From Sulfuritalea sp. (GTDB lineage Bacteria; Pseudomonadota; Gammaproteobacteria; Burkholderiales; Rhodocyclaceae), in contig JAUYSD010000268.1 of NCBI GenBank assembly GCA_030696505.1, forward strand, positions 1 through 34,596: 34,596 nucleotides of DNA, read 5' to 3'. Numbering within the stretch: position 1 is the first letter of the stretch; every line of letters starts with the position of its first letter. Below, in pieces: positions 18,259 to 24,322 of the stretch. The notes under the pieces were generated by a model that was given only the letters and a program-made list of their open reading frames with translations, did not search any database and was not told where the DNA came from. The translations under genes were made by a program, and so were the position numbers.

Positions 18259-18275
<17 letters not shown>

Positions 18276-19797
18276 GCTTTTCCTGCCCGGAACGCAGTTT
18301 ATTCAGGGCGTTGATATAGGCCTTGGCGGAAGCAACCACGATATCCGTGTCCGCGCCCTGACCATTCACAATTCGGCCGTCTTTCGACAGGCGAACCGTC
18401 ACCTCGCCCTGGGCATCCGTGCCGGTAGTGATGGCATTCACCGAGTAGAGCAGCAGTTCGGTACCGCTCGTTGCAATGGCCTCGATCGCCTTGAAAGTTG
18501 CATCGACGGGACCGCTGCCGCTGGCTTCGGCCTGCTGCTCGGCGCCGCCGGCAGAAAGCGTCAGCCGCGCCTGAGGCACCTCACCGGTTTCCGAGTGGAA
18601 CATCGAAGACACGAGTTTGTAGTGCTCGTCGTCGGTGAGGACCATTTCGTCGCTCATCAGCGCATGCAGATCCTCATCGAAAATCTCGTGCTTCTTGTCG
18701 GCCAGCTCCTTGAAATGGGTGAAGGCGGCGTTCAGAACCTGTTCGCTCTCTACCTCGATGCCGAGTTCCTTGAGGCGCGCCTTGAAGGCGGTGCGCCCGG
18801 AGTGCTTGCCGAGCACCAGCTTGTTGGCGTTCCAGCCCACATCTTCGGCACGCATGATCTCGTAGGTTTCACGGTGCTTGAGCACCCCGTCCTGGTGGAT
18901 GCCGGACTCATGGGCAAAGGCATTGGCACCGACGATCGCCTTGTTCGGCTGCACCGGAAATCCGGTGATGCTCGACACCATCTTGGATGCCGCAACAATT
19001 TGCGTCGTATCGATTCGGGTAATGCAGGGAAACACATCCTGCCGGGTATGCACCGCCATGACGATCTCTTCCAGCGCGGCATTGCCGGCTCGCTCGCCCA
19101 GGCCGTTGATCGTGCATTCGACCTGACGCGCACCCGCCATCACCGCGGCAAGACTGTTGGCAACCGCCAAACCGAGGTCGTTATGACAATGCACCGACCA
19201 GATGACCTTGTCCGAATTGGGAATGCGTTCGCGCAGCTGGCGAATACGTTCGGCATACTGATCCGGAACGTTGTAGCCGACGGTGTCCGGAATATTGATG
19301 GTGGACGCCCCTTCCTTGATCACCGCCTCAATGATGCGGCAGAGGAAATCCAGATCCGACCGCCCGGCATCCTCGCAGGAAAACTCCACGTCGTCGATCC
19401 CATTGCGGGCGAAGCGCACCGCATGCTGGGCAGCGACAAGCACGTCATCGGGCGACATGCGCAGCTTCTTTTCCATGTGGATCGGGCTGGTCGCGATGAA
19501 GGTATGGATGCGCCCCGATTTCGCCGGCTTGACCGCCTCGAGCGCGCGCGCAATGTCCTTGTCGAAAGCCCGACACAGACCTGCCACCGTCGAGTCCTTG
19601 ATGGTTTCGGCAACGGCCTTGACCGCTTCAAAATCACCGTTGGACGCAGCAGGAAACCCTGCCTCGATGATGTCCACGCGCATCCGTTCAAGTTGCCGGG
19701 CAATCCGCAGTTTTTCTTCCTTGGTCATTGAAGCGCCGGGACTCTGTTCGCCGTCGCGCAAGGTGGTGTCAAAAATGATCAACTGTTCCTTGGACAT
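18259..19797 (-). CDS. leuA: 2-isopropylmalate synthase
   Basis: This 512-aa enzyme condenses acetyl-CoA with 2-oxoisovalerate, the committed step to leucine. It has [19 protein letters not shown] at the start (metal aspartate), [17 protein letters not shown] (~203, HxH metal ligands), [15 protein letters not shown] (~230) and a C-terminal LeuA allosteric domain (~390-512) for leucine feedback inhibition. ATG 19797 is preceded by AGGAGA. The substrate 2-oxoisovalerate derives from the upstream ilvBNC products. A leucine-rich leader ORF precedes it. Confidence 0.97.
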
Positions 19798-19880
19798 GGT
19801 TTTCTCCTGGGAAAAATCAAGTTTCAGTCGAGGCTGACGCCGGCGTATTCGTATTAGGCGCAGCGACCGCAACTAAAACC

Positions 19881-19914
19881 AAAAAATGGCAAATCCCGCC
19901 CCTCGTGGCGCGGG
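19881..19914 (-). terminator. Hairpin with T tract in the leuA leader (possible attenuator)
   Basis: On the minus strand CCCGCGCCACGAGGGGCGGG folds as a 5-bp stem plus 2 bp beyond a G-G mismatch, with loop ACGA. Eight nucleotides later comes TTTTTT. It lies between the leader ORF stop (19949) and the leuA start (19797). The upstream GCGCG and CCTCCCCC could pair with the two arms, as an antiterminator requires. Folding software would be needed to rank these structures. Confidence 0.45.
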
Positions 19915-19948
19915 CACTGTCAACAACCGGATTGTGGGGGAGGTGTAT

Positions 19949-20059
19949 TTAGCGCGCGCGGCGCAGCAGCGGAAGCAGCTTGGCGCGCAGCGGCAGGCGT
20001 GCAAGCAGCACGCTGGAGAGGGCAAGAAACAGTATGGGAAAAGTCAGCATCTCAAACAT
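19949..20059 (-). CDS. Leucine-rich 36-codon leader ORF upstream of leuA
   Basis: The ORF encodes MFEMLTFPILFLALSSVL followed by a second leucine run KLLPLLRRAR. Twelve of 36 residues are leucine, and LLPLL lies five codons before the stop, as in attenuator leader peptides. No Shine-Dalgarno is visible. The predicted transcription start from the promoter at 20067-20095 falls at or next to the ATG, so it may be leaderless. Alternatives are a small hydrophobic membrane protein with a cationic tail, or chance. It is too short for the ORF track. Confidence 0.5.
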   Translation of the reverse strand: MFEMLTFPILFLALSSVLLARLPLRAKLLPLLRRAR

Positions 20060-20066
20060 AGCTACG

Positions 20067-20095
20067 ACTATAAAGATATTGTGCTGATCGCGCAA
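20067..20095 (-). promoter_or_regulatory. Promoter for the leuA leader transcript
   Basis: On the minus strand TTGCGC (20095-20090) and TATAGT (20072-20067) are exactly 17 nt apart. It lies after the pssA stop and starts a leader of about 260 nt ahead of leuA. The long leader fits regulation by attenuation. The remainder of the 343-bp gap 19798-20140 holds nothing else that I can see. Confidence 0.65.
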
Positions 20096-20140: not shown

Positions 20141-20905
20141 TCAGCTTTCGCCGGCATTGTGCTTTCGCCGACTACGCTTCCACAGCGCCATAACGTAACC
20201 CGACAGGGCATAGGCAAGAAACAGGGCGAACAGAATTCCCGGCGGATACGACGACACGAGCCCATAACCGAGAACGATGGCGGGAAGGACAATGAATGGC
20301 ACGCTGCGGCGCAGATTGATATCCTTACCACTCCAGTAGGGCACGGTGCTGACCATGGTGATACCGGCAAACAGCGTCAAGGCAAACGCATACCAGCGTA
20401 CTTCTTCGCCGGGAATATTCAGGTCGTTGATGATCCATACGAAACCGGCCACTAGCGCGGCCGCTGCCGGGCTGGGCAATCCCTGGAAATAGCGCTTATC
20501 CACAATTCCAATATTGGTATTGAAGCGGGCCAGGCGCAATGCTGCGCCGGCACAATAGACAAACGCGGCGATCCAGCCCCACTTGCCCATGCCCTTCATC
20601 GCCCACTCAAAGGCAATCAGTGCCGGAGCCGCACCAAAGGACACCATGTCGGAAAGTGAATCGTATTCCGCGCCGAAAGCACTCTGCGTTCGCGTCATGC
20701 GCGCCACACGTCCATCCAGACCGTCGAATACCATGGCGATGAAAATTGCCACTGCCGCATGCTCGAAGCGTCCGGTCATTGCCTGGACTATGGCGTAAAA
20801 ACCGGAAAACAGAGCTGCCGTCGTCAGCAGGTTGGGCAGCAGATAAATGCCGCGCCGACGCAGTTCGGAATTCATCAGCGCCTTGCGAGGTGGAATTGCC
20901 GGCAT
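20141..20905 (-). CDS. pssA: CDP-diacylglycerol-serine O-phosphatidyltransferase
   Basis: This 254-aa inner-membrane CDP-alcohol phosphatidyltransferase makes phosphatidylserine, the precursor of phosphatidylethanolamine. The catalytic motif DGLDGRVARMTRTQSAFGAEYDSLSD, begins near residue 60 and carries all four aspartates. Hydrophobic segments surround it, and RRRGIYLLPNLLTT is the usual start. ATG 20905 is used, but MNSELRRRG (20875) is possible. It is preceded by its own promoter and separated from ilvC by a terminator. Confidence 0.93.
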   Translation of the reverse strand: MPAIPPRKALMNSELRRRGIYLLPNLLTTAALFSGFYAIVQAMTGRFEHAAVAIFIAMVFDGLDGRVARMTRTQSAFGAEYDSLSDMVSFGAAPALIAFEWAMKGMGKWGWIAAFVYCAGAALRLARFNTNIGIVDKRYFQGLPSPAAAALVAGFVWIINDLNIPGEEVRWYAFALTLFAGITMVSTVPYWSGKDINLRRSVPFIVLPAIVLGYGLVSSYPPGILFALFLAYALSGYVMALWKRSRRKHNAGES

Positions 20906-22612: not shown

Positions 22613-24322
22613 TTACAGTTCCTCGGCCAGAATCATTTCCGACAAGCCTTTGCCGGCCGCCACCATCGGATAGACATTGGCCGTCTGATCGGTGAGGAAA
22701 TCCATGAACACAAGGTCGTTCTTGTGCTTGGTGAAAGCCTCACGCAGCGCCGGCTCCACGTCGGCCGGACGCTCTATCTTCATGCCGACGTGACCGTAGG
22801 ACTCTGCCAACTTGACGAAATCCGGAAGTGCATCGACGTAGGACTCGGCGTAGCGATTCCCGTGGAACATCTGTTGCCACTGGCGCACCATGCCCAAATA
22901 GCGATTGTTCAAATTGATAATCTTGATCGGCAGACGAAACTGCTTGGCTGTAGACAATTCCTGGATATTCATCTGAATCGAGGCTTCCCCGGTAATGCAC
23001 GCCACAGTCGCCTTCGGATTGGCGAAGCGTACGCCCATCGCATAAGGGAGGCCTACACCCATGGTGCCGAGGCCGCCGGAATTGATCCAGCGACGGGGTT
23101 TGTCGAACTTGTAGTACTGCGCCGCCCACATCTGGTGCTGCCCCACGTCCGAGGTAATGAAGGCCTCGCCGCCAGTCACTTCATAGAGCTTTTCCACCAC
23201 ATACTGGGGCATGATGATTTCCTTGCCCTGCTTGTACTTGAGCGACTTCTTGGCGCGCCACTCGTCGATCTGCTTCCACCAGGCGGCCAGCGCCTTCGCA
23301 TCAGGCACGCCGGCAGAAGCCTCGAGAAGCTTCTGTAACTCGTCAAGCACATCAGGCAGATTACCGACAATGGGTACGTCGACCTTGACCCGCTTCGAAA
23401 TCGAGGACGGATCGATGTCGATATGGATGATCTTGCGCGAAACCTCTGCAAAATGCGCCGGATTGCCAATCACGCGATCATCAAAGCGCGCACCGACGGC
23501 GATCAGCACATCGCAATTCTGCATGGCCATGTTGGCCTCGTAGGTGCCATGCATGCCCAGCATGCCGAGCCATTGCTTGTCGGTAGCCGGATATCCCCCC
23601 AATCCCATCAGGGTATTTGTCACCGGATACCCGAGAGTCCGGGCAAGCTTGACCAGCCTTTCAGCCGCATCCGAAAGAATAACGCCGCCACCGGCGTAAA
23701 TCATCGGCCGCTTGGCTTCCAGCAGCATCTGCACCGCCTTCTTGATCTGCCCGCTATGCCCCTTGACCACCGGGTTATAGGAACGCATGGCGATAGTCTT
23801 GGGGTATTCGAATTCGCACTTCTGGTTGGTGATGTCCTTCGGGATATCCACCAGGACCGGACCGGGGCGGCCCGTCTTGGCTATGTAGAACGCCTTCTTC
23901 AGGGTTATCGCCAGGTCCCTGACATCCTTGACCAGAAAGTTGTGCTTGACGCAGGGCCGGGTAATGCCGACTGTGTCGCATTCTTGGAAGGCATCCTGGC
24001 CGATGTAGGCCGTAGGTACCTGGCCGCTGATAATTACCATCGGCACCGAATCCATATGGGCCGTAGCGATCCCGGTTACCGCATTGGTCACGCCCGGCCC
24101 CGAGGTGACCATGCAGACGCCGATCTTGTTGGACGAGCGCGAATAGGCATCCGCCGCATGAACGGCCGCCTGCTCATGGCGAACCAGGACATGCTTGAAC
24201 TTGTCCTGTTTGAAGAGTTCGTCGTAGATATAAAGGACCGAGCCGCCGGGATAGCCGAACACGTACTCGACCTTTTCCTCCTGCAAGCACCTGATTACAA
24301 TTTCTGCGCCGGTTAGCTGCAT
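22613..24322 (-). CDS. ilvB: Acetolactate synthase large (catalytic) subunit
   Basis: This 569-aa ThDP/FAD enzyme makes acetolactate and acetohydroxybutyrate. The catalytic glutamate is in RHEQAAVHAADAYSRSS (~49). YAGGGV and IAVGARFDDRV mark the FAD domain, and the PP domain contains ITGEASIQMNIQELSTAKQF (~436) and LNNRYLGMVRQWQ (~463). The usual GDG(S) motif reads GEA(S) here. ATG 24322 is the first codon of the standard start QLTGAEIVIRCLQEE. It is the first gene of ilvBNC and is divergent from the sigma factor gene. Confidence 0.95.
   Translation of the reverse strand: MQLTGAEIVIRCLQEEKVEYVFGYPGGSVLYIYDELFKQDKFKHVLVRHEQAAVHAADAYSRSSNKIGVCMVTSGPGVTNAVTGIATAHMDSVPMVIISGQVPTAYIGQDAFQECDTVGITRPCVKHNFLVKDVRDLAITLKKAFYIAKTGRPGPVLVDIPKDITNQKCEFEYPKTIAMRSYNPVVKGHSGQIKKAVQMLLEAKRPMIYAGGGVILSDAAERLVKLARTLGYPVTNTLMGLGGYPATDKQWLGMLGMHGTYEANMAMQNCDVLIAVGARFDDRVIGNPAHFAEVSRKIIHIDIDPSSISKRVKVDVPIVGNLPDVLDELQKLLEASAGVPDAKALAAWWKQIDEWRAKKSLKYKQGKEIIMPQYVVEKLYEVTGGEAFITSDVGQHQMWAAQYYKFDKPRRWINSGGLGTMGVGLPYAMGVRFANPKATVACITGEASIQMNIQELSTAKQFRLPIKIINLNNRYLGMVRQWQQMFHGNRYAESYVDALPDFVKLAESYGHVGMKIERPADVEPALREAFTKHKNDLVFMDFLTDQTANVYPMVAAGKGLSEMILAEEL

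Follow-up and report, generated by a model that had tools for sequence, protein, structure and literature searches.

A leucine-rich leader element conserved upstream of leuA in betaproteobacteria and its probable function as a leaderless attenuator

Introduction

The leu attenuator of enterobacteria consists of the leader peptide leuL located before leuABCD. Another leader, tnaC, senses free tryptophan through arrest of the nascent chain. A 2004 survey of proteobacterial attenuators reportedly covered the gamma and alpha groups, and our literature search, which was not exhaustive, found no description of a betaproteobacterial leu attenuator.

In actinobacteria, leuA is preceded by the LEU element, that is, a leader peptide with a run of Leu, the codons of which pair with the leuA Shine-Dalgarno (SD) sequence at the base of a pseudoknot (PMC1262725). 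The mycobacterial cys operons are preceded by leader peptides without terminators (PMC1262725). Attenuator ORFs that are leaderless have been described in trpL of Sinorhizobium meliloti (PMC7298713) and in the ilvB leader of Corynebacterium diphtheriae (PMC5784534).

In this study we analyzed the region ahead of leuA in a 34,596-nucleotide stretch of Sulfuritalea sp. DNA (the window), for which a sequence-only reading had proposed a leucine attenuator with a terminator-like hairpin.

Materials and methods

We searched 81 related genomes at the DNA level and obtained leuA leaders from the genus and, beyond it, from further genera and families of the same order. The 74 loci retrieved were anchored on leuA. 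Because the comparison loci were found through leuA, no selection was made on the features of the leader itself. A strict pattern was also used, which consisted of TATANT, 4-9 nt, ATG, 42-72 nt and CTGCTGCGCNNNGCGCG. Since this pattern is strict, the counts obtained with it are lower bounds.

Results

The minus strand of the window carries ilvB (22613-24322), ilvH, ilvC, pssA (20141-20905) and leuA in this order. The gap between the end of pssA at 20141 and the leuA ATG at 19797 is 343 bp, and the leader of the leuA transcript is predicted to be about 262 nt. A promoter, a leader ORF and a hairpin with T6 had been claimed to lie in order in this gap, and all of them were found there, as TTGCGC-17-TATAGT, an ORF of 36 codons, a GC-rich hairpin and T6. 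The features are as follows.

20090 to 20095, minus strand: -35 element TTGCGC, read in the sequence; TTG is kept in the genus and in part of the outside leaders
20067 to 20072, minus strand: -10 element TATAGT, unchanged throughout the aligned genus leaders; almost every relative has TATAGT or TATATT
19949 to 20059, minus strand: predicted leaderless Leu leader ORF, 36 codons and stop, from the comparison and pN/pS
19949 to 19969, minus strand: end of the leader ORF, CTGCTGCGCCGCGCGCGCTAA, with Leu codons and the small GCGC..GCGC hairpin (P1), from the comparison
19929 to 19948, minus strand: C-rich, G-free tract directly 3' of the leader stop, from the base profile across leaders
19951 to 19962, minus strand: region 2, pairing partner of 19918-19907, from constrained folding
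19907 to 19918, minus strand: region 3, the 5' side of the hairpin and partner of region 2, from folding
19887 to 19922, minus strand: GC-rich terminator-like hairpin, from folding (dG -15.5 with the U-tail)
19881 to 19886, minus strand: T6 tract, read in the sequence; not general in relatives
19813 to 19880, minus strand: dispersed palindromic repeat between T6 and the leuA ribosome-binding site, from copies elsewhere and empty sites in relatives
19804 to 19808, minus strand: leuA SD sequence AGGAG, read in the sequence
18259 to 19797, minus strand: leuA (2-isopropylmalate synthase), anchor of the leader comparison

The leader ORF (MFEMLTFPILFLALSSVLLARLPLRAKLLPLLRRAR and stop, 20059-19949) contains 12 Leu among its 36 codons, including LLPLL near the stop, in agreement with the earlier description except for one detail; four codons (RRAR), not five, lie between LLPLL and the stop. 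That is, just upstream of leuA stands a short ORF with several successive codons for the amino acid that the pathway makes, as in attenuators. A search of Rfam 15 with the leader gave no match at the gathering score, nor at E values up to 1.

Within the genus, the leader ORF was kept in 29 of 31 genomes, and 27 of these 29 ORFs are exactly 36 codons long. The two exceptions are L009, in which a deletion breaks the frame, and one genome that yielded no leader locus. The L009 genome is incomplete, and its deletion may represent either a loss or an assembly error. Outside the genus, 26 of the 44 leuA leaders sampled had a short ORF whose C-terminal part carries a Leu run; in several of the leaders having no such ORF, pssA or another gene abuts leuA. 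The mean length of the ORF was 36 aa in the 29 genus leaders and 29 aa in the 26 outside leaders, and Leu accounted for about 27% of the residues of these ORFs. LL occurred within the last 12 residues in all 29 genus leaders and in 24 of the 26 outside leaders (53/55). The sequence-only reading had made its proposal depend on the leucine content of the ORF, and this content is conserved.

The pN/pS value of the leader ORF was 0.52 in frame 0, against 0.83 in frame 1 and 1.53 in frame 2. These values suggest coding with moderate strength, and the case for coding therefore rests mainly on the keeping of the frame and on the Leu run. We think that the Leu-rich leader ORF before leuA very probably serves to sense a shortage of leucine.

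The strict pattern matched 49 of 399 genomes of the order, and the reversed pattern matched none; all 30 of the strict-pattern loci retrieved lie just upstream of leuA. With the named genomes, at least 119 matches were obtained, and 110 of those listed lie just upstream of leuA. The listed matches include the genera Nitrosomonas, Nitrosospira, Nitrosovibrio, Nitrotoga, Gallionella, Aromatoleum, Azoarcus, Denitromonas and Sulfuritalea and other betaproteobacteria, and Nitrosomonas europaea, a culturable host, carries the element (L196). A few matches bear, as given in the records, the labels of Lysobacter, Sulfuricaulis and Bordetella MAGs. Among the remaining 9 of the 119 listed, two are leader-like (L152 and L181), with no leuA found on their contigs, and seven look like chance matches, six of them in other phyla. 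Judging from these comparisons, the same leader element occurs across many betaproteobacteria; it is conserved and no longer a mere candidate. The view that the ORF arose by chance within a constitutive leuA promoter region might draw on the folding energy of the whole leader, which was unremarkable (z -1.5), but it is contradicted by this order-wide conservation, and we consider its probability negligible.

The -35 and -10 elements (20095-20090 and 20072-20067) are separated by a 17-bp spacer, and the leader ATG (20059-20057) begins 7 nt after the -10 element. TTG at exactly this spacing was found in 29 of 29 genus leaders and in 16 of 26 outside leaders. A consensus promoter scan of the window did not list this promoter, because TTGCGC agrees with the -35 consensus at only three of six positions. 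Wherever a TATANT box was found, with 0-13 nt allowed, the leader ATG lay 6-9 nt after it. As exceptions, the TATANT box of L068 is about 34 nt upstream of the leader ATG, and L044 has no clear -10 box. An SD-like motif preceded the leader ATG in none of the 55 leaders (29 genus and 26 outside), and preceded leuA itself in 52 of them. The short distance to the -10 element and the SD count strongly support the claim of a leaderless leader ORF, which would start at the first base of the predicted message.

The last seven codons of the ORF showed no synonymous difference among 27 species of the genus; in contrast, pS reached 0.41 over leader codons 1-24, and in early leuA it was 0.51. This pattern indicates that a constraint acts on the end of the leader ORF at the level of RNA. 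The GCGC core is kept order-wide, nearly all of the 26 outside ORF-bearing leaders sharing it, and the GCGC pairing is preserved even in L061, in which the stop sits in front of GCGCGC. The N-terminal half of the ORF is unrelated between lineages and is hydrophobic within the genus. The hydrophobicity would suit a small functional membrane peptide, with its location before leuA being incidental. But outside the genus the conserved part is limited to the Leu run and the GCGC core of the RNA, the core survives when the stop moves, and leuA adjoins every leader-like match whose contig shows the next gene. We regard such a peptide as very improbable, and return to the leucine sensor.

At positions +2 to +15 after the leader stop, G made up 0% of the bases in the 29 genus leaders and 3% in the 26 outside leaders; further downstream the values were 34% and 27%, respectively. 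A C-rich, G-poor stretch near the leader stop, of the kind expected of a Rho-dependent tnaC-like leader, is therefore present, but it is short. A CAATTCG-like box was also observed after the stop in 97 of 174 leaders, its commonest distance being 9-16 nt. The box lies between the C-rich tract and the hairpin (L033, L039, L046, L075, L094, L100 and others, mostly at 5-16 nt), and it extends to GCAGTACCC in some clades.

In the window, the hairpin (19922-19887) runs straight into T6 (19886-19881). In constrained folding, a ribosome placed at the stop left this hairpin intact, and one placed at the KLL codons led 19962-19951 to pair with 19918-19907 instead. The two predicted foldings are mutually exclusive. 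The switch was partial when the ribosome stood at the last two Leu codons, and at the first Leu codon the hairpin remained.

The comparison of relatives gave a different distribution for these features. A U-tailed hairpin of dG -8 or better was present in 48% of genus leaders against 16% of shuffles, and in 12% of 145 non-genus leaders against 8% of shuffles. At the stricter cut of dG -12, the values outside the genus were 8% and 2%, so that a minority of these leaders may carry real terminators. A downstream hairpin is usual outside the genus and is somewhat stabler than in shuffles (mean z -1.3), with a variable sequence. The genus hairpin pairs were formed in 84% of cells, compared to 44-61% when slid. 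For pairing between the end of the ORF and the hairpin region, the mean z was -1.4 in the genus, where the sequences are related and non-independent, and -0.25, near background, outside it; in the non-genus leaders, neither core:downstream nor C-tract:downstream pairing was above shuffles. The competition for the hairpin on which the earlier proposal depended is accordingly found in the window and the genus and not beyond. The covariation that had been suggested as a check was weak for the genus hairpin (51-59 of 500 shuffles were as good), and P1 varied too little for a test.

Taken together, these comparisons indicate that the conservation of the element does not extend to the output step, because both the U-tailed hairpins and the competing pairing are near background outside the genus. 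The sensor part of the leucine-attenuator reading is well supported by the sequence comparison, and intrinsic termination is a plausible output in this genome. The reading as a leucine attenuator thus stands, and the terminator type is supported only locally, that is, in the window and in the enrichment of U-tailed hairpins in the genus. Apart from this, L072, a relative with a small genome (1.7 Mb), retains a leaderless Leu-rich ORF. The GCGC core is gone in L072 and a T-tailed hairpin precedes leuA, which possibly reflects a shift to a plain terminator type.

An imperfect palindrome of 62-68 bp (19813-19880), REP/MITE-like, lies between T6 and the leuA SD sequence. Related copies occur in 29 of the 31 genus genomes, and L015-L018 and L020-L030 have an empty site. 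A short motif of the palindrome matched this genome 19 times, compared to 5 times for the reversed motif; the copies number roughly 10-19, some in tandem at a distance of 63 bp. In L225 (1498-1560), a copy appears to form part of the reading frame of a possible secreted-protein gene, close to its start (ATGAGAACGAAG...), and may contribute coding sequence.

Discussion

The best explanation of these data, which we hold to be probable with some reserve, is a leucine-responsive leader-peptide attenuator whose leader ORF is leaderless. Transcription would begin at or beside the A of the leader ATG, and a ribosome would start on the bare 5' end. When leucyl-tRNA is ample, the ribosome would reach the stop and cover the end of the ORF, allowing the downstream hairpin to form; in this genome the hairpin runs into T6, and transcription would end before leuA. 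When leucyl-tRNA is scarce, the ribosome would wait at the leucine codons, region 2 would pair with region 3, the hairpin would not form, and leuA would be transcribed. The layout in the window is near-classical, and we favor this classical mechanism for this genome on the basis of the folding model.

The position of the ribosome on the leader might instead alter access to the leuA ribosome-binding site. Such control has a precedent in the actinobacterial LEU element (PMC1262725), and the hairpin ends close to the SD sequence in several species. Against this idea, the predicted pairing of the SD sequence differed with ribosome position by only 0.007 (SE 0.008) outside the genus and -0.012 (SE 0.015) within it, and the conserved CUG codons do not match GGAG. 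We judge translational control to be improbable. SD sequestration was rejected, the predicted access of the leuA SD sequence being independent of ribosome position.

Another explanation keeps the same Leu-sensing leader with an output that is Rho-dependent as in tnaC, the hairpin serving only to pause the polymerase or to protect the 3' end. Once the ribosome has left at the stop, Rho would load on the G-free, C-rich tract and the bare ORF, and a ribosome waiting at the Leu run would leave too little bare RNA for Rho. After the ORF itself, the tract is the feature found most generally, and a U-tailed hairpin is absent from most of the species outside the genus. A similar, weaker argument has been made for the mycobacterial cys leaders (PMC1262725). 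However, the tract is only about 20 nt, classical rut sites being longer than this, and the window itself has a U-tailed hairpin. We consider this explanation rather unlikely.

We therefore distinguish the leucine attenuator of this genome from the family. The family as a whole likely needs another output, for which Rho is our leading guess, suggested by the G-free tract after the stop. We tentatively speculate, as a possibility that we consider less likely than not, that this is an order-wide betaproteobacterial family in which the sensor (leaderless ORF, GCGC core and G-free tract) was kept and the terminator was not, because the ancestral output was Rho loading at the G-free tract, and that intrinsic hairpins were added in some genera, this one included.

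These findings would extend amino-acid leader attenuation to a further large group of bacteria, nitrifiers among them, with a leaderless start maintained as a feature of the family. The element also offers a natural case of a sensor far better conserved than the terminator, which makes intrinsic and Rho-dependent output comparable between relatives.

Compared with known systems, the element shares with the actinobacterial LEU element a leader peptide with a Leu run upstream of leuA; in contrast to that element, no SD effect is predicted here and pairing of the Leu run with the SD sequence was not found. Like S. meliloti trpL and the C. diphtheriae ilvB leader, the leader ORF is predicted to start at the 5' end of the transcript, although those leaders concern other amino acids and lineages, and the start site here is deduced from the promoter. 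With tnaC-type leaders it may share the logic that the position of the ribosome decides the loading of Rho beside the stop, but here codon starvation is the likely signal. The enterobacterial leuL-leuABCD system likewise has a short Leu-rich ORF ahead of leuA, and the window shares with it a hairpin with a U-tract and mutually exclusive foldings. The betaproteobacterial element differs from it in that the leader is leaderless, the terminator and antiterminator are not conserved across the family, the promoter is its own within an ilvBHC-pssA-leuA cluster, and a GCGC core and a G-free tract are conserved.
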